DNA of 36,118 bases from a virus: the IMG/VR virus record IMGVR_UViG_3300025759_000277, positions 1 through 36,118 of that record; one strand, given 5' to 3'. The notes below the pieces were generated by a model. The model made no database searches and was not told the origin of the DNA. It was given only the letters and a program-made list of their open reading frames with translations. How positions within the stretch are numbered: the stretch's first letter is position 1; each line of letters starts with the position of its first letter. A program made the position numbers and the translations under genes. Shown here piece by piece: positions 1,088 to 20,502 of this stretch.

Positions 1088-1293
1088 TAGTGCAGCGTGA
1101 CCTTAGCTGTAACAGCCAGACCAATATCAGGATCACCAGAAACGGCAAAATCAATCTTGGCATTGCCTGTCACCGCTGAGTTGAATGTGATCTGGTCGCT
1201 GGTAATCTCTCCGTTCCCGTCAATTACCAAAAAGCCGCGCGTAACAATATACCCGCCCTGTCCTACACCGAACCCACGAGTAACAATCTTCAT
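1087..1293 (-). CDS. Small conserved virion-associated protein
   Basis: 68 residues starting MKIVTRGFGVGQGGYIVTRGF. The N-terminus repeats a short VTRGF element and is glycine rich. Short proteins with a G-F-G-x-G-Q-G-G-Y-I-V-T-R-G pattern commonly accompany tail fibre genes in phages; their function is unknown to me. The C-terminal half looks like beta structure (alternating hydrophobic residues, AVTAKVTLH at the end). It overlaps the fibre gene stop (TGATG) and the next gene start (TAATG), so translation of the block is coupled. Confidence 0.6.
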   Translation of the reverse strand: MKIVTRGFGVGQGGYIVTRGFLVIDGNGEITSDQITFNSAVTGNAKIDFAVSGDPDIGLAVTAKVTLH

Positions 1294-3794
1294 CAGGTCG
1301 CCCGCGTCATGCTGGTTGGATCACTCGCATCATCAATCGTGAATGTCGCAGCCGTAGTAGAGCCATCCAGCTTCTTGGTTGTCCAGGTCGTGCCACTCAA
1401 GCCAAACTCGGTCAAGTGCTGCATTATCAGCATGACCGCCTGCGTCAACGTTGGCGCAACACCGTCAGCCGCATAACTCTCTGTGAGCTGCGTTTGCAGA
1501 ATGTCAGCAATAGATACATTCTCAAGCGCGGCAATCAGTGCCGGTACGTCGTCTGCCTGTAGCTCGTTCGTATCTGCCAGCACATCAATAAGCAATGCGC
1601 CTACGGTCCCCGGTGTCGTATGGCCTGCTGTGGCCTCGTCTAGCACGGCGTCCGCAATAGCGGCGGCTGTTGGGTCATTAAGACCGCTGATCTGCGCCGG
1701 AATGGTTGTGCCGGTATCAGTCAGAATCGAATCAACGTTAGCATCCACCGTAGCAAGCGCAGAGGCCGTGGCCAAAGCCGCATCACTAATGGCCAGATCA
1801 GCCTGCGCGTTTACGTCAGCCGCAGACAAGTCATTAAGGCCCGCAATGAGGCCCGGCACGTCGTCACTTTGTAGCTCGTTGGTGTCAGCCTCAATATCAG
1901 TAATGGCTTTACCAAGTGAACCCACCCCGACATGACCTGCCAGTGCTTCATCAAGAACTGCGTCAGCAATGCTCGCCGCTGTTGGGTCGTTAAGTGCTGC
2001 CAACCCTGCGTCCAATTCGGCTTTCGTTGGGCCGTCATAGTCTGCTAACGCAGTATCTACCTCTGCGTTGACCTGTGCAGCGGATAAATCATTCAATGCA
2101 CTAATCGAGGCCGGGATTGTGGTTCCGGTATCTTCCAGAATGGCCGTTGCGTCTGCCTCAATGTCAGCCAACGCCTTACCAGCAGAACCAGCCGTTGTAT
2201 GCCCAGAAAGCGCCTCGTCCCATACCGCATCAGCGATTGCAGAAGCAGAAGCGCCGCCGCCTGTTGGTCCCTCTTCAAGAGCGTTAGCAGTAAAGCGCGA
2301 AACGCCCGCATCATTCTCAACTAACTCGTTGAGCAATGCAGTAGCCGTCCCCGGCTTGGCTGCGGGGTCGTAATCTGTGGCGAATAAATGATCCAGATGA
2401 ATATCGCTCAGCGCCGTGTCAACCTCTGCGTTTACATCGGCTGCTGAAATGTTCTCAAGTGCTGCTAGACCGGCATCAAACTCGGCCTTGGTCGGTGCCC
2501 CTGAATTAGCCGTGATCAAGAGCCTGTCAATATGCAAAGAAGGCGAAGATTGGTTGTTAGCGAAGAAGCGGATGTAAACCTTGCCCTCGTCAGCGCCTGT
2601 GCCTGTGTGCCGCGAGTATAGCGGGAAGCTATAGGGGAAATTAGTCGTTTCGGCTGTCCCCGTCATGTCTCCGAGAGTGTCCCATCCTGCCGCATCGAAG
2701 TCATAGGCATACACAACACACGTATCATTGCTGCCGTTTATTCGACCACTAAAGTTCGCCGAAATCGCCGTGCTATCTGCGCCAACATCTGCGCCATAGA
2801 CAATGCTTATGTCGTTCTCAACAGCCGCCCCTCCTGTGCCTGTTGAATTGATCTCATGCTCTGACCGGAGAGCCTTCAAATCCAAATATGTACCCGTGTT
2901 CTCGACCCCTTGGAACGAAGACCCCTTAATTGAACTGCTCGTATTGTCCTCTGTTATCTCGACATTTCTCGCGCCAGAGTGGAAGGGGCCATATGCGGCG
3001 AAAGCCTCGCCCAAATCCGCATTGGTCGCTGCATCATAGTCAACCAAAGCCGTGTCAACCTCTGCGTTTACGTCAGCCGCAGACAAGTCATTTAGCGCCG
3101 TGATCTGCGCCGGAATAGTGGTTCCCGTGTCAACCAGAATTGCGTCAACATTCGCGTCTACTGTGGCCAAAGCAGAAGATGTTGCCAGTGTGGCGAGTGT
3201 TGTCGGTATGTCATCGCTCTGCAATTCACTTGTGTCAGCCTCAATATCAGCGACAGCCTTGCCTAGAGTGCCCGCCGTAACATGCCCCGACAAAGCCTCA
3301 TCAAGAACCGCGTCCGCGATAGCCGCAGCCGTTGGGTCATTCAAGCTGTTTATATCGCTGGTCAGCTCCGCCCGCGTTGGCGGGTCGTAATCTGTTAGAG
3401 CGGTGTCCGCTTCCGCGTTGACATCTGCTTTTGCTTGAGTAGATAGATCAACTGTAAAATTATCAGTTCCACCAACCAGAGTATCATATGCTTCAGCCGG
3501 AAGAACCATGAAATCAGCAATAACAGGTAGGGCACCGGATTCCTTACACATCAGGCGCAAATGCCCCAACGTGTTCGTGTCAGTAGCGTCCAGGTCCACC
3601 ATGTAGTTACCGCCGTAACGGTGAGTGGCCGCCGTAGCATCATTCTTTTGAGCAGAGGCAGCACCATTCTTGGACAGGTGCAGGTCTGCCTGAGAAAGCG
3701 TCAGCGCTTCTTCTGTTGTCTTGCCATCCGTGTCGTCCACGAAGGGGCCAAGCATTACATCAACTGCTGTGGATTGTTTAAGCCATCGGACCAT
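1293..3794 (-). CDS. Repeat-rich tail fibre protein
   Basis: 833 residues. The N-terminal 120 residues (DVMLGPFVDDTDGK, then HLSKNG and HRYGGNY) resemble a domain found at the start of many phage fibre or baseplate-attached proteins. The remainder is built from repeats with the motifs SAADVNAEVDTAL, DPTAAAIADAVLDEA, GHxTxGxxGKA and IEADTxELQSDD, which predict a long coiled or fibrous shaft. At roughly residues 265-430 a non-repetitive beta-rich domain (from GPFHSGARNVEI to LHIDRLLITANSG) interrupts the repeats and could be a carbohydrate-binding module. The C-terminal 60 residues are non-repetitive. It is probably involved in host adsorption. Tandem repeats of this kind expand and contract by recombination. 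Confidence 0.75.
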   Translation of the reverse strand: MVRWLKQSTAVDVMLGPFVDDTDGKTTEEALTLSQADLHLSKNGAASAQKNDATAATHRYGGNYMVDLDATDTNTLGHLRLMCKESGALPVIADFMVLPAEAYDTLVGGTDNFTVDLSTQAKADVNAEADTALTDYDPPTRAELTSDINSLNDPTAAAIADAVLDEALSGHVTAGTLGKAVADIEADTSELQSDDIPTTLATLATSSALATVDANVDAILVDTGTTIPAQITALNDLSAADVNAEVDTALVDYDAATNADLGEAFAAYGPFHSGARNVEITEDNTSSSIKGSSFQGVENTGTYLDLKALRSEHEINSTGTGGAAVENDISIVYGADVGADSTAISANFSGRINGSNDTCVVYAYDFDAAGWDTLGDMTGTAETTNFPYSFPLYSRHTGTGADEGKVYIRFFANNQSSPSLHIDRLLITANSGAPTKAEFDAGLAALENISAADVNAEVDTALSDIHLDHLFATDYDPAAKPGTATALLNELVENDAGVSRFTANALEEGPTGGGASASAIADAVWDEALSGHTTAGSAGKALADIEADATAILEDTGTTIPASISALNDLSAAQVNAEVDTALADYDGPTKAELDAGLAALNDPTAASIADAVLDEALAGHVGVGSLGKAITDIEADTNELQSDDVPGLIAGLNDLSAADVNAQADLAISDAALATASALATVDANVDSILTDTGTTIPAQISGLNDPTAAAIADAVLDEATAGHTTPGTVGALLIDVLADTNELQADDVPALIAALENVSIADILQTQLTESYAADGVAPTLTQAVMLIMQHLTEFGLSGTTWTTKKLDGSTTAATFTIDDASDPTSMTRAT

Positions 3795-10631: not shown

Positions 10632-10659
10632 TTGACAGGAAAATTCATTGCTGTATAAT
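10632..10659 (+). promoter_or_regulatory. Strong rightward early promoter
   Basis: TTGACA at 10632-10637 and TATAAT at 10654-10659 are both perfect sigma70 hexamers, separated by 16 bases. Transcription should start near 10666, only about 15 bases before the ATG at 10681. This rules out the in-frame ATG at 10648 as the start. Confidence 0.85.
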
Positions 10660-11158: not shown

Positions 11159-11376
11159 CAGACACAACGATTGATGGGGAAGAAGACTTCGACCCCGGTG
11201 AAATGTTGACGGCGGAGCTTTGCAAGGTGGCAGGCACCATCATCCGAAACCCTGAGCTTTTGGATGCCCAGCAGCGGGAAGATGTCAGAGAACAATGCAA
11301 AGAGCTAGTGGAGAAGCTGAATGTTGAATATCAACCTAGGGGGGTTGTCCCAGGAACAGATAGCCAAGCGAGTTAA
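11155..11376 (+). CDS. Small acidic early protein
   Basis: 73 residues from the ATG at 11155. It begins MTDTTIDGEEDFDPGEML and continues as helices (CKVAGTIIRNPELL, REDVREQCKELVEKL). The last 18 codons overlap the start of the exonuclease gene in another frame. I recognise no family. A helix-rich acidic protein directly ahead of a recombination exonuclease could be a regulator of it, but this is only context. Confidence 0.6.
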   Translation: MTDTTIDGEEDFDPGEMLTAELCKVAGTIIRNPELLDAQQREDVREQCKELVEKLNVEYQPRGVVPGTDSQAS

Positions 11377-12148
11377 CTCAATTGGCGGCTCTGATGCAAA
11401 CACGATCATGTCTGGCAATTCGGAATGGATTGAAGAACTGTGGCTTGAGAAGCGCGGCGAAAGGGAGCACAAAAACCTGGACGACAACCTTCCTGTAGTC
11501 ATGGGGCAGTTCACCGAACCCCTGAACGCCTACTGGTACGGCAAGCAGACCGGGCGCGAGGTTCTGGAAATGGGCCGCGAAGTCACCCACTGTAAACATA
11601 CATGGCGCACTGCCACGCTGGACGGGGTGCTGCGTGAGAACGACGATCCTATGGGCATCACTGATGCTGTATGGGAAGCCAAGCACGTTAATGCTTGGAG
11701 CAAAGAGGATGAAGTGCTGGCAAAGTATATGCCCCAGCTTCATCACAATATGGATTGCCTTGGTGCAGATCGCGCTGTTCTGTCTGTCTTCATTGGCACC
11801 CAAAAACATGTTTTCTTTGATGTCGAACATGATCCTATTTACGCCATTGACGTACTGCGGGCAGAACAGGCTTTTTGGGATTGTGTAAAGACAGGGGAGC
11901 GACCAGTAGCTATTGAGGTCGAGGCTCCCATGCCTGACAAGTTGCGCCAGGTTGACATGACCGGGAACAACAAATGGGCCGATGCAGCCGCTGACTTTAT
12001 TGAGTATCAGGCCGCATCAAAGAAATTCGATGCCTCTAAAAAGGCGATGAAGGGACTTATCAGCAAGGACGTTGGCCTTGCCGAAGGTCACGGCGTAACA
12101 GCAAAACGCGCCAAAAACGGTGCTATCAATATAGGAGAAACCAAATGA
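11321..12148 (+). CDS. YqaJ-type recombination exonuclease
   Basis: 275 residues. The YqaJ/lambda-exonuclease PD-(D/E)xK core is visible: SIGGSDANTIMSG near residues 20-32, LDGVL with Asp101, then VWEAKHV with Glu119 and Lys121. It should resect double-stranded DNA ends to give 3' single strands for annealing by the next gene's product. The two genes overlap by 4 nt. The start at 11321 has GGAG upstream and keeps the conserved N-terminal LGG...A-x-R motif. Confidence 0.85.
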   Translation: MLNINLGGLSQEQIAKRVNSIGGSDANTIMSGNSEWIEELWLEKRGEREHKNLDDNLPVVMGQFTEPLNAYWYGKQTGREVLEMGREVTHCKHTWRTATLDGVLRENDDPMGITDAVWEAKHVNAWSKEDEVLAKYMPQLHHNMDCLGADRAVLSVFIGTQKHVFFDVEHDPIYAIDVLRAEQAFWDCVKTGERPVAIEVEAPMPDKLRQVDMTGNNKWADAAADFIEYQAASKKFDASKKAMKGLISKDVGLAEGHGVTAKRAKNGAINIGETK

Positions 12149-12804
12149 GTAATTACGCAGAAATCTGGCAGAAGCTTTCTGCCATTGATGTGTCCAGCAT
12201 GACGGAAACCAAGCAGGCCGGGAGCGTAAAGCTCACCTATCTGTCATGGGCACATGCTTGGGCGGTGATGATGGAGCACTATCCTGACATGTATATCACC
12301 TTCACATCGTATGAGCGCAGCACAGAAACTGCCACCACACACAATGATGTGCAGTACTACCGTGACGGCTCTGCCGCTGTAAAGTGCAATGTCACCATTG
12401 GTGGCTGTATTAGGTCATTCACCCTGCCCGTTATGGACCATAAGAACAAGGCAATCCAGAACCCTGACGCATGGGCGATCAATACCGCCAAGCAGCGGTG
12501 CATGGTGAAGGTGTTCGCCCTGTTTGGTCTGGGCCATTACATCTACGCCGGTGAAGACCTACCTGTTGAGCCGAAAAGTGAGAGTGCAACAACCGGCGTT
12601 CAGTCTGATGCACCAGTTGACAAGGCGCGGGAAATCTACAAGGCCATTCAAAAGGCTAGCAGCGTCAAGGCAATCACCACCGCCCTTGATGGTAACGAGG
12701 AATACCTTGATCTTCTGAAGGTCAATGACCTGGAGAAGTGCAGGGCCATTGAAGATTTGGTTAAGCGGAAAACAGATGCTCTAACAGAGAAGGAAGCAGC
12801 ATGA
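12145..12804 (+). CDS. Sak3/DUF1071 single-strand annealing protein
   Basis: 219 residues. DUF1071 hallmarks: LTYLSWAHAWAVM (30-42), a beta-rich middle, LPVMDHKNKAIQNPD (94-108), and AINTAKQRCMVKVFALFGLG followed by HYIYAGEDLP (111-140). The family is known as Sak3, annealing proteins partnered with phage exonucleases. The C-terminal third is a helical tail. Its ribosome binding site and first seven codons (12131-12165) are duplicated, inverted, at 20005-20039 ahead of an unrelated gene. Confidence 0.85.
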   Translation: MSNYAEIWQKLSAIDVSSMTETKQAGSVKLTYLSWAHAWAVMMEHYPDMYITFTSYERSTETATTHNDVQYYRDGSAAVKCNVTIGGCIRSFTLPVMDHKNKAIQNPDAWAINTAKQRCMVKVFALFGLGHYIYAGEDLPVEPKSESATTGVQSDAPVDKAREIYKAIQKASSVKAITTALDGNEEYLDLLKVNDLEKCRAIEDLVKRKTDALTEKEAA

Positions 12805-14508: not shown

Positions 14509-14572
14509 ATTTGACCCAACTAAACCAGTGCAGATCCGTGATGGGAGTGAAGCGGTGAGGGACTTCGCATGA
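14501..14572 (+). CDS. Leader peptide 1 with MTKFDPTKP start
   Basis: A 23-codon frame starts MTKFDPTKPVQIRDG, begins within the methylase gene's last codons and ends in ATGA overlapping the start of the beta-helix gene. Its first 11 codons recur at 15315. MTKFDPTKPVQTRDG-like N-termini are common to a family of short phage proteins that normally continue with R-K-A-R-I. It therefore looks like a truncated family member, now positioned to couple translation of the next gene. Confidence 0.55.
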   Translation: MTKFDPTKPVQIRDGSEAVRDFA

Positions 14573-15303
14573 AAAGACAAGTGAAAAAGTACGAACTGAC
14601 AGACGAAACAAACGAACAAGGTTTATTCCGTATCAAAGCCTTGCGTGACTTTGGTGGCGTTAAAGAAGGCGATCTTGGCGGCTTCATTGAAAGCGAAGAT
14701 AACCTATCGCACAAGAACAACGCATGGGTCTTTGACAACGCACTGGTCTCTGACAACGCACGGGTCTTTGGCAACACACGGGTCTATGACAACGCACTGG
14801 TCCATGGCAACGCACTGATCTCTGACAACGCACGGGTCTATGGAGATGCACAGGTCCATGACAACGCACGGGTCTCTGGCAACGCATGGGTCTTTGACAA
14901 CGCATGGGTCTTTGGCAACGCACTGGTCTCTGACAACGCACTGGTCTCTGACAACGCACAGGTCTGTGGCAGCGCACGGGTCTTTGGCAACGCACGGGTC
15001 TCTGGCAACGCACGGGTCTTTGACAACGCACGGGTCTCTGGCAACGCACGGGTCTTTGACAACACACGGGTCTTTGGCAACGCACTGATCTCTGGCATCA
15101 TGCGCTCTGACGGATATGCCTTTATTGCCGTTCCTTGTTCTGATGGTCTTGTTCGAGTAATTGCAGGTTGCCGCTACTTCACCTTTGAAGAAGCCTATGA
15201 CCATTGGAACAAGACGCGAAAAGGAACACTATTAGGCGATGAAACCATGATTATTCTCAACATGATGAACGAAATGGTCAAGCTCAAGGGATATTCAGGA
15301 TAA
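14569..15303 (+). CDS. Hexapeptide-repeat left-handed beta-helix protein
   Basis: 244 residues. The N-terminal cap (KKYELTDETNEQGLFRIKAL then GGVKEGDLGGFIESEDNLS) precedes about 21 hexads of the form (G/D)-N-A-x-V-x (residues 50-175), predicting roughly seven turns of a left-handed beta-helix. The C-terminal cap contains CSDGLVRVIAGCRYFTFEEA and HW. This cap-repeat-cap layout recurs in phage and prophage proteins of unknown function. The repeats are near-identical at DNA level. A structural or binding role is plausible; no catalytic residues are evident. Confidence 0.8.
   Translation: MKRQVKKYELTDETNEQGLFRIKALRDFGGVKEGDLGGFIESEDNLSHKNNAWVFDNALVSDNARVFGNTRVYDNALVHGNALISDNARVYGDAQVHDNARVSGNAWVFDNAWVFGNALVSDNALVSDNAQVCGSARVFGNARVSGNARVFDNARVSGNARVFDNTRVFGNALISGIMRSDGYAFIAVPCSDGLVRVIAGCRYFTFEEAYDHWNKTRKGTLLGDETMIILNMMNEMVKLKGYSG
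14716..15093 (+). repeat. 18-bp tandem coding repeats
   Basis: About 21 imperfect copies of an 18-bp unit close to GGTCTYTGRCAACGCAC encode the hexads of the beta-helix protein. Several adjacent units differ by only one or two bases. The array should gain or lose whole 18-bp units without shifting frame. It also creates long spurious open frames on the other strand. Confidence 0.85.
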
Positions 15304-18029: not shown

Positions 18030-18424
18030 CAATAGCTCCAGATGGTCTTTTCAGGCTTATCCATACCAAGATGAATAAACCGCCTGTCATATGGGCCTGT
18101 CTGGTTCACGCCAATGCGCGTAAATCCCCTCCTATGAGCCAAACACACTAGCTCTAGGGCATCGCCCCACTTCACACGGACATCCGCTGCACGGGCCGTT
18201 AAATGCCCACTATTGGGGCTTCCGCCCACAGCCTTGTTGTGGTCAAGGCAACGATGTGCGCTTGTGATAGGCATGGGCTTACCGAAAGCGTCCCGCAGCC
18301 ACTGAAGGCTGTCCATGAACTGCTCATCAATCATGGACTCACAGCCACACCGACAGAGCATTTCAGAGGGTGTAAAGCTGTTCCATCGCCAAGGCACTCT
18401 GTTGCCGTCAGTTGTTAGGAACAT
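18029..18424 (-). CDS. M15-family peptidase endolysin
   Basis: 131 residues from the ATG at 18424; an ATG at 18436 is an alternative, and the longer open frame upstream overlaps the previous gene. The peptidase M15/VanY-like zinc site is complete: SGHLTARAADV gives His74 and Asp81, and FIHLGMD gives His118. The N-terminal WNSFTPSEMLCRCGCES is the usual start of small phage M15 endolysins. It cleaves peptide cross-links of peptidoglycan. It has no signal peptide, so it depends on a holin. Confidence 0.85.
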   Translation of the reverse strand: MFLTTDGNRVPWRWNSFTPSEMLCRCGCESMIDEQFMDSLQWLRDAFGKPMPITSAHRCLDHNKAVGGSPNSGHLTARAADVRVKWGDALELVCLAHRRGFTRIGVNQTGPYDRRFIHLGMDKPEKTIWSY

Positions 18425-18785
18425 GTCGCCCCCCATTAACCCTCGCCTCATAGGCCCCAGCAACATTCGCGCTAATCTGCTTTTGGGGGAGGCTTTCAGG
18501 CTTTCCCTCTGTTGCCAACTGCCCCATAATCGCGGCATAGGCGGCCATGTCCACAAAGTCGTCAGGGTTAGTCGAGCCTGCCTTGGTTCGGGCCAGCTTT
18601 ATACAAACCATGATGCCCGCCATCTGTTCCTCACTAATCGGTGTCCCAAGGTAGGCCCCGACCATTCTTGCCATATTGCGGTGATTCTCCCGAATATCGC
18701 CGTGTTGTTCTGCGCGGTCCCCTGTCACCAGGCTATCCGCCGTTTGCAGAACTTCTCCAACCGTCATTTTGTCCAGCTTACCCAT
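18408..18785 (-). CDS. DUF6378-like phage protein
   Basis: 125 residues. The pattern ADSLVTGDRAEQHGDIRENH, MARMVGAYLGTPISEEQMAG, IMVCIKLARTKAG and DDFVDMAAYAAIMGQL matches DUF6378, a small all-helical phage family in which the R-x-x-x-H-G-D and K-x-A-R...D-x-x-D-x-A-x-Y residues are conserved. These are reminiscent of MazG-like nucleotide pyrophosphohydrolases, though no activity is established. It overlaps the metallophosphoesterase by 22 nt. Confidence 0.7.
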   Translation of the reverse strand: MGKLDKMTVGEVLQTADSLVTGDRAEQHGDIRENHRNMARMVGAYLGTPISEEQMAGIMVCIKLARTKAGSTNPDDFVDMAAYAAIMGQLATEGKPESLPQKQISANVAGAYEARVNGGRHVPNN

Positions 18786-19981
18786 GCTTTCTCCGCTCCT
18801 GCTTTTGGTTCTTCAAGGTAAATTGGCATCTGGTGCGTGATGCCCCGCTGTGGATGTGTAATCCACAATGCCTGCGCCGGGACTTCATACGAGAAATTCC
18901 CCTGATAGGCATATTCGTCATACCCCTTGAGCGACCCATTAACAATCAGGTTGGGTAGCTGCATAAGGGTGTGAAAGTGCCCGACCATCATGGTCTGGAA
19001 GTCCATATCAATGGCCGCGTTGCGAGATGCCTTCTTGTGCCGTCCTCGCGTGATCGGGCCAAGCGGGCCAATAATCCCGTCACCGCCCCGAAACTGGTCG
19101 CCGTGGGTCAGAAGATATTCATGCCCGTATATGCGGAACAAGCAATCCGACCCCTCTGCTATATTGAACTGAACCCTGTTATCCTCACAGAAATGCTTTT
19201 CCAGAAGGCAGTAAACCAGCCAATCGAAGTTGGTGGCGTTCCGCTCCTTTGCCTGCACTTTCTTTGTAATTCTACCATGATTCCCCGTCACGCAGGGGAC
19301 ATATACCTTGCCGAACTTATCGGCAAGGGTGCTGATGCACCAGATAAGGTTCTCGAACAGGTCAACAACCGTGGGCATGATCGGAGCATCGTTGGTCTTG
19401 GACAATTCCTCGTGGATGTCGCCCGTTACCATGTCCCCGCCCAAGGCAAAGACAATGCCCGGATAATCCGCACTTCTGAACTCTTGGTGTAGGAGATTGA
19501 CCGCCGTAGTCACTAGCTTGCGACAACGCTCTTTTGCAATATCCAGGTTGAACTTGTTTACGCCATGAATCTCATCAGGGTTCACAACTTCGCCCCAATG
19601 CCAATCAGAGGCAAACAGGGTAGGAACACCCATAACGCCAGAGGAGCTTTTCTTGACCAGCCACTTTGGTGGCTCTGGGTCTTTATCGCTTATCAGACCA
19701 ACCCAATCCCGCACATTGCTGCGCGTGATTTCATCGCTCTTCATCTGCGTGAGTTGCAGGCGAACATCCCGAAGCTCCTGCTTCAAGACATCAACCTCAC
19801 TAACCTCAACAGGAAGGTCTTGCGGCACGAACCCGGCTTCACGGGCCGTTCTTAATCGGTGGGAAAATCCGGCCTGCTTGCAGGGCCAGCGCGAATGCTT
19901 ACACGCCTCAGCAATAATCTTGTGGCGGGCAAGCAAGTCAACAGCTTCTTGAAGCTGCTCATCTGTAAGAGATATAGTCAT
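18764..19981 (-). CDS. Metallophosphoesterase with N-terminal helical domain
   Basis: 405 residues. The calcineurin-like di-metal site is complete: SDWHWGE (Asp126, His128), GGDMVTG (181-187), GNHGR (233-237), LTHGD (291-295) and GHFHT (334-338). Residues 1-55 look like an HTH-type DNA-binding segment (LTDEQLQEAVDLLARHKIIA...), followed by a coiled linker (VDVLKQELRDVRLQLTQMK). Similar phage proteins exist; Mre11-type nuclease or phosphatase activity is possible. It is the first full gene of the leftward lysis unit, preceded by a leader peptide copied from the Sak3 gene. Confidence 0.8.
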   Translation of the reverse strand: MTISLTDEQLQEAVDLLARHKIIAEACKHSRWPCKQAGFSHRLRTAREAGFVPQDLPVEVSEVDVLKQELRDVRLQLTQMKSDEITRSNVRDWVGLISDKDPEPPKWLVKKSSSGVMGVPTLFASDWHWGEVVNPDEIHGVNKFNLDIAKERCRKLVTTAVNLLHQEFRSADYPGIVFALGGDMVTGDIHEELSKTNDAPIMPTVVDLFENLIWCISTLADKFGKVYVPCVTGNHGRITKKVQAKERNATNFDWLVYCLLEKHFCEDNRVQFNIAEGSDCLFRIYGHEYLLTHGDQFRGGDGIIGPLGPITRGRHKKASRNAAIDMDFQTMMVGHFHTLMQLPNLIVNGSLKGYDEYAYQGNFSYEVPAQALWITHPQRGITHQMPIYLEEPKAGAEKAWVSWTK

Positions 19982-20025
19982 ACTGCCGTTGATGTGTCCA
20001 GCATGATTTCTGCGTAATTACTCAT
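19978..20025 (-). CDS. Leader peptide copied from the Sak3 gene start
   Basis: A 15-codon frame, MSNYAEIMLDTSTAV, begins with the first seven residues of the Sak3 protein and carries its AGGAG ribosome binding site. It ends in ATGA overlapping the start of the metallophosphoesterase gene. The second half (LDTSTAV) is encoded by the opposite strand of another Sak3 segment. It probably delivers ribosomes to the next gene by coupling. Confidence 0.6.
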   Translation of the reverse strand: MSNYAEIMLDTSTAV

Positions 20026-20039
20026 TTGGTTTCTCCTAT
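19984..20039. repeat. Fold-back duplication of the Sak3 gene start
   Basis: Positions 20005-20039 are an exact reverse complement of 12131-12165 (35 bp: ribosome binding site plus seven codons). Positions 19984-20006 match 12180-12202 in direct orientation (22 of 23). The two pieces are fused in opposite orientation with a 2-base microhomology, as after template switching. Confidence 0.85.
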
Positions 20040-20058
20040 GCTAATTGCGCCGTTCAAT

Positions 20059-20087
20059 AATATAGATGATATATCAATATATATCAA
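20059..20087 (-). promoter_or_regulatory. Leftward promoter of the lysis unit
   Basis: On the minus strand TTGATA (20087-20082), 17 bases, then TATATT (20064-20059). It sits in an AT-rich gap 34 bases before the copied leader peptide. It separates the metallophosphoesterase and lysis genes from the tail operon upstream. Confidence 0.7.
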
Positions 20088-20115
20088 ATGTTTTTATTTA
20101 TATGCTTTGGTATAT

Positions 20116-20502
20116 CTAAAGGATAAGCCCCGCTGCCGAAGCACAGGCAATGAAGCCTATTCTCTGGGCATTTCTTACGCCATTCGCGCCTTCTGTCATA
20201 TTCCAATGGGAGATAACGGCCATGCCCGCACTCACAACAAGCCAGACGCGGGTAAAGATAGCAAATAGAACGAACCCTATTTCCTGATAAGAATTGCCGA
20301 CAATGGGCCATGTAATCTGCCAAGCCATGATAGAAACAATCATGCACAGGCAAACGCATTGAACCGCCCTGGCGTCCATACGCATTGCGCCTTCTGTACC
20401 GCTGATCCACTTTGACCGCTGATAGACCCAAATGGACATCATGGCGATCATCATATAGCCGAAGTAATCCCTGATAATATCTAGTGTGCTAATATCAAAC
20501 AT
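20116..20502 (-). CDS. Multi-span membrane protein (alternative holin candidate)
   Basis: 128 residues with about four hydrophobic spans: near 14-27 (YFGYMMIAMMSIWVY), 46-69 (AVQCVCLCMIVSIMAW...), 75-97 (IGFVLFAIFTRVWLVVSAGM) and 115-128 (IGFIACASAAGLIL). It is the last gene of the tail operon, overlapping the upstream coiled-coil gene by 8 nt. Holins and antiholins often follow the tail tip gene, so a lysis role is plausible. No family recognised. Confidence 0.6.
   Translation of the reverse strand: MFDISTLDIIRDYFGYMMIAMMSIWVYQRSKWISGTEGAMRMDARAVQCVCLCMIVSIMAWQITWPIVGNSYQEIGFVLFAIFTRVWLVVSAGMAVISHWNMTEGANGVRNAQRIGFIACASAAGLIL

Follow-up and report, generated by a model that had tools for sequence, protein, structure and literature searches.

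In the uncultured phage genome examined here, a metallophosphoesterase gene is preceded by a 15-codon mini-cistron that carries the ribosome binding site (RBS) of sak and ends in the ATGA with which the phosphoesterase begins, and the gene pair that overlaps by that same ATGA in relatives now lies 134 nt apart. We consider it probable that a microhomology-mediated, multi-jump template-switch insertion placed the yqaJ-sak translation start, from this phage or a close relative, before the phosphoesterase gene, swapping coupling to a neighbouring gene for coupling to the mini-cistron. The features discussed are collected in Table 1, and the window is the whole stretch of DNA that was analysed, 36,118 nt.

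Table 1. Features of the source locus, the copied pieces and the phosphoesterase locus, in window positions.
Feature	Position	Strand	Basis or remark
YqaJ/RecE-like exonuclease gene	11321-12148	+	PF09588 1e-11, phrog_434 1e-40
Sak-family single-strand annealing protein, source gene	12145-12804	+	PF06378 8e-41, phrog_8492 9e-42
Source piece 1: last yqaJ codons (NGAINIGETK, stop), RBS, first 7 sak codons	12116-12165	+	inverted repeat
Hairpin TGGCAGAA-GCT-TTCTGCCA within sak	12166-12184	+	perfect, 8 bp; also in predicted RNA fold
Source piece 2: SAIDVSSM codons of sak; sense reversed in the copy	12179-12202	+	23/24 match
Metallophosphoesterase (Mre11 / exonuclease-like), 405 codons	18764-19981	-	phrog_284 exonuclease 5e-50; motifs; Foldseek
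Leader mini-cistron MSNYAEIMLDTSTAV, stop; 15 codons	19978-20025	-	TGA overlaps phosphoesterase ATG (19981) as ATGA, 19981-19978
Predicted RNA hairpin UCAUGCUG (20006-19999) / CAGUAUGA (19985-19978) enclosing phosphoesterase AUG	19978-20006	-	-8.8 kcal/mol
Insert between upstream gene and phosphoesterase, 134 nt	19982-20115	-	absent in L004, L006, L007
Copied piece 2, sense opposite to piece 1	19983-20006	+	23/24 match to 12179-12202
Copied piece 1: yqaJ fossil (NGAISIGETK, stop), RBS, leader start	20005-20054	-	repeat finder
Leader Shine-Dalgarno (SD) AGGAG	20033-20037	-	7 nt before ATG; anti-SD duplex -7.3 kcal/mol
Promoter-like site TTGATA-17-TATATT	20059-20087	-	consensus match only, 10/12, in AT-rich DNA
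Perfect dyad TGATATAT-CAAT-ATATATCA, overlapping -35 of promoter-like site	20067-20086	.	operator-like or merely AT-rich
Upstream membrane-protein-like gene	20116-20502	-	54% identical to upstream gene of L004, L006, L007

The copied pieces and their source

The source lies at the junction of yqaJ and sak. The Sak protein scores 139.5 bits against PF06378, for which the curated cut-off is 22.3, and its gene is uninterrupted over 219 codons. Since the N-terminal EIWQ-LSAID of Sak is conserved among distant relatives, sak is the original and 19983-20054 the copy. A sequence-only reading of the window had described an exact 35-bp inverted copy, 20005-20039 against 12131-12165; the coordinates are correct, and the repeat finder extends the homology to 50 nt at 90% identity (20005-20054 against 12116-12165). 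The second piece, given there as a direct match of 22 in 23, is slightly larger, with 23 of 24 nt identical between 19983-20006 and 12179-12202. The repeat coordinates also bear out the opposite orientation of the two pieces and the 2-nt microhomology at their joint, where they overlap at 20005-20006. Four points were absent from that reading: the greater length of the homology, the synonymous differences in the yqaJ frame, the hairpin in sak where the switch lies and, in relatives, the ancestral overlap at ATGA. Read on the minus strand, the product consists of AACGGCGCAATTAGCATAGGAGAAACCAAATGAGTAATTACGCAGAAATC, ATGCTGGACACATCAACGGCAG and TATGAC, that is, the RBS followed by the leader frame, with its TGA overlapping the ATG at 19981.

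Sensitive self-BLAST of the window and a search of the record recovered the same pair and found no further copy beyond the sak source. The number of exact inverted 35-mers expected by chance in the window is about 5e-13, which excludes chance; for the 23/24 match, the expectation is 2e-4. In a control set of 162 loci (1.66 Mb), made up of the window and the fetched related viral and genome loci, the inverted pair 12116-12165 / 20005-20054 is the sole inverted repeat of at least 24 nt with copies more than 200 bp apart, and the sole such repeat, direct or inverted, that contains an RBS and a start. The window also holds about 20 tandem 18-nt repeats at 14646-15169, in a gene (14569-15303) for a YdcK-type beta-solenoid protein (PF18836), and several diverged repeats of 40-138 nt at 1542-3439, inside a large gene, 1293-3794(-), that has a single, marginal PHROG match.

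The junction pattern GCAGAAATCATGCTGGACACATC gave 0 matches in viral_contigs, an exact 21-mer was absent from genome_contigs, and a degenerate MSNYAEI pattern matched six genes, all unrelated. When phage records were searched by DNA, the phosphoesterase locus was unmatched and the sak locus gave one weak match. These counts bear on the nearest natural precedent, the MIRU of mycobacteria, which inserts at overlapping start/stop codons with its ORF coupled at -4 nt (PMC12548453). The outcome is alike, a small inserted ORF coupled at -4 to the next gene, and the leader might then belong to a mobile repeat family that inserts at start codons. MIRUs, however, are repeated and apparently mobile, whereas the leader occurs once, and its templates are two pieces of one of the phage's own genes, taken in opposite senses; apart from the sak source there is one copy in the window and none in viral_contigs or genome_contigs, and pieces in opposite senses are unlike a moved unit. 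With the several dispersed copies of such a family not found, we regard membership in one as scarcely credible.

The switch point, between 12165 and 12166, is the 5′ base of the 8-bp sak hairpin, 12166 being its first base, and piece 2 terminates six bases into the 3′ arm. This hairpin is one of just 7 perfect hairpins of at least 8 bp with a loop of 3-8 in the 36-kb window, and 0.06% of window positions are no more than 1 nt from the 5′ base of one. We propose that DNA synthesis through the start of sak came to a halt at the hairpin base, and that the 3′ end, ...TC, re-paired 37 nt off on the opposite strand, at 12202. Back-copying from 12202 would have run into the hairpin arm as far as 12179, and the new end would then have joined at GGCAG/GGCnG beside the phosphoesterase ATGA. 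The strand switch put forward in the sequence-only reading thus gains support from a short opposite-sense copy, a 2-nt overlap and a switch at the base of a hairpin, which are the marks of a quasipalindrome switch. In E. coli, polymerase stalls at quasipalindromes and then switches strand, the established mechanism of quasipalindrome mutation, whose first examples came from yeast and phage T4 (PMC7202029). Those events, and the short-range template switches described in RNA genes (PMC8794818), share with the present case the stall at an inverted repeat, the short copy of the opposite strand and the small microhomology. Classical quasipalindrome events, however, return to the original template in the same locus. 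Since the product here lies 7.8 kb off and sak is intact, a multi-jump templated insertion of the MMBIR/FoSTeS type is a likelier model than a classical in-place event.

The copy differs from its source at 6 of 74 sites. Five of these differences are in the yqaJ part, within the 15 nt at the upstream end of the copy. They preserve the yqaJ frame, in that four codons are changed, three of them synonymously and one from N to S in a column that is variable among relatives; after five random substitutions, at most one amino-acid change was obtained in about 1.5% of trials (P about 0.015). With its frame preserved in this way, the copy looks like a fossil of coding sequence, from a donor that would be a related phage or from a source that drifted afterwards. 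A pattern search for a donor encoding NGAIxIGETK found none. The earlier view that the start was taken from a recombination gene of the same genome therefore holds for the yqaJ-sak source, but not for a donor that is simply the same present-day genome, given the five frame-keeping differences.

The same differences bear on the possibility that the inverted joint was made in vitro, as an assembly or multiple-displacement-amplification (MDA) chimera. MDA chimeras are mostly inverted joins with an intervening deletion and a short complementarity of at least 2 nt (PMC1855051), and the 12165/12202 joint has the form typical of them. The joined pieces are nevertheless not identical to their parent, and the frame-keeping yqaJ differences imply evolutionary time. 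A chimera would need three switches in 74 nt plus an unrelated AT-rich segment, and yet restore RBS, frame and ATGA. An artefact is unlikely on account of these differences, the three switches and the functional fit.

The landing site and its earlier arrangement

Phosphoesterase relatives with 81-83% identity were fetched from viral contigs. In three of these loci, L004, L006 and L007, the stop of the orthologous upstream gene overlaps the phosphoesterase start (ATGA, -4) and there is no insert; among the five closest relatives, L005 and L008 have other genes upstream of the phosphoesterase. The orthologues came via the phosphoesterase loci, and the upstream gene used as a pattern query returned no relatives. 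L006 and L007 are near-identical here, so that the three loci amount to about two independent comparisons of the earlier state. They suggest that the phosphoesterase was probably already ATGA-coupled to its upstream gene before the event, which would have swapped the partner and parted the two genes. It had been proposed beforehand that related phages with unrelated sequence and no leader at this place would speak against a transplanted start. The relatives are literally of this kind, and what they indicate is a lineage-specific insertion and no refutation; from the loci compared, lineage-specific is how we classify it.

The insert comprises AT-rich promoter-like DNA, the RBS and the leader. 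The upstream protein of the window is about 7 residues shorter at its C-terminus than those of the relatives. At the landing site, GGCAGTATGAC of the copy aligns gap-free to GGCCGCATGAC of the relatives, and from this alignment we suggest that the final leader codons and the stop may be a remnant of the former upstream gene. The promoter-like site and the dyad sit in the 60 bp with the highest AT content of the window (85%); this segment had no match in viral_contigs by pattern and no second copy in the window. A perfect sigma-70 consensus, TTGACA-16-TATAAT, is found elsewhere, at 10632-10659 (+), followed by an RBS and ATG, and is probably the early promoter.

The other end of the phosphoesterase gene also differs from that in relatives. 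In the window a DUF6378 gene (18408-18785) starts at an ATG overlapping the phosphoesterase 3′ end, the position at which the M15 endolysin gene starts in relatives such as L006 (11203-11616 of that locus). Judged from this comparison, the DUF6378 gene is an insertion that captured an overlapping start, and the phosphoesterase gene has an insertion point at each end.

The leader, its translation signals and the phosphoesterase

The sequence confirms the earlier reading of an intact RBS and of a 15-codon frame whose end forms the ATGA overlap with the phosphoesterase start. The anti-SD energy of the leader equals that of sak itself. The phosphoesterase's own SD-like site, AGGTGG with -5.9 kcal/mol in L004, L006 and L007, is lost in the window, where the value is -3.0. 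The -4 stop/start overlap and a strong upstream versus a weak downstream initiation signal (-7.3 versus -3.0) are those of a coupled pair, and from them we infer that translation of the phosphoesterase would depend on the leader. The predicted hairpin around the phosphoesterase AUG has a modest score, z -2.1 versus shuffles. Ribosomes would load at the leader RBS, open the hairpin that holds the AUG, terminate at the leader UGA and reinitiate at the AUG that overlaps it. The phosphoesterase would thereby be translated independently of its old upstream partner, and perhaps be transcribed from the AT-rich promoter-like site. Experiments with other gene pairs found that coupling requires overlaps or very short gaps and that a separation of about 20 nt removes it almost completely (PMC10666635); hence the old coupling cannot act across 134 nt, and the geometry required is supplied again by the leader.

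The leader peptide itself is probably without function, and no conserved counterpart was found in viral_contigs or genome_contigs. A leader peptide of the attenuator type was considered and set aside: there is no terminator-like site between leader and gene, no codon run and no Rfam match. Rfam and tRNA scans gave no matches.

The identification of the downstream gene as a metallophosphoesterase is borne out by its motifs and by its best fold match. It has the calcineurin-like set DxH, GDxxxGD, GNH (extended as GNHGR), HGD and GHxH; the residues DWH 126-128, GNH 233-235, HGD 293-295 and GH-H 334-337 are invariant in 20 homologues, and GD 182-183 nearly so. No Pfam match was found for the protein, and among its phage homologues several carry the annotation exonuclease or DNA polymerase II small subunit. 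With an AlphaFold model (mean pLDDT 72.5), the top Foldseek match was Mre11 (E 3e-5), and the DNA polymerase delta holoenzyme ranked 6. Because the TM-scores are low, 0.3-0.4, the modelled fold supports assignment to the superfamily and not an exact function. A PDB sequence search gave TIR-adapter matches only, which are spurious.

It might be argued that the insertion is real but a neutral scar, the leader having no role and the phosphoesterase using other signals or being poorly expressed. The case is a single genome, and its leader peptide is without a conserved counterpart. Against this, neither the RBS nor the leader frame is broken, and the leader ends in a stop that overlaps the start of the phosphoesterase gene. 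That gene has a weak SD of its own, an intact coding frame and conserved motif residues. Furthermore, within the copy it is the RBS and the first seven codons that match exactly, whereas the yqaJ part has diverged. We therefore hold a neutral scar to be doubtful, with a small chance of being right.

A further possibility is cross-talk between RNAs, in which the mimic of the sak RBS and 24 nt antisense to sak codons 12-19 would allow sak and the phosphoesterase to be coordinated, either by the two mRNAs themselves or by an RNA-binding regulator common to them. Leader and sak mRNA are complementary at 23 of 24 nt by construction, and 35 identical nt across the RBS are common to both mRNAs. This complementarity, however, is an automatic result of the fold-back origin, and the antisense target is inside the sak coding region rather than at the sak RBS. 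We know of no regulator that would serve. Such cross-talk appears very improbable.

Comparison with coupled pairs and meaning

Returning to the coupled mini-cistron, its closest functional parallels are found among ATGA termination-reinitiation pairs (PMC10666635) and in the RNA phage GA, where coat and lysis genes are coupled at an overlapping stop/start without an SD (PMC9955659). The 4-nt overlap, the weak downstream SD and the start codon in a hairpin are shared with these; unlike them, the upstream cistron here is a 15-codon transplant that replaces a full-length coupled gene. Engineered bicistronic designs use 17-codon leaders (PMC5995908), and they resemble the present arrangement in the strong SD1, the short leader and the overlapping stop/start. 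The leader described here differs in its natural origin and in having no strong second SD inside it.

Translational coupling and templated insertion are each already known; what is new is a coupled mini-cistron made by templated insertion. In a literature search of limited scope, no paper combined template switching, phage and coupling, although absence elsewhere is not thereby proven. To our knowledge, ribosome profiling reveals new short coupled ORFs widely, but where they come from can seldom be traced. In the present case the sequence itself reveals the donor, the hairpin switch point, the restored ATGA and, through relatives, the probable earlier gene arrangement, and one mutation event is directly testable as the source of a working translation start. 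A further caution is that a short inverted copy in a viral contig is not necessarily a chimera. The yqaJ-sak region that donated the start signal itself encodes annealing machinery. It is tempting to speculate, as a long shot, that phage replication by annealing and recombination moves translation-start modules, that yqaJ-sak donated its start via a hairpin-triggered strand switch, and that this may be a recurrent route to coupled mini-cistrons (uORFs).
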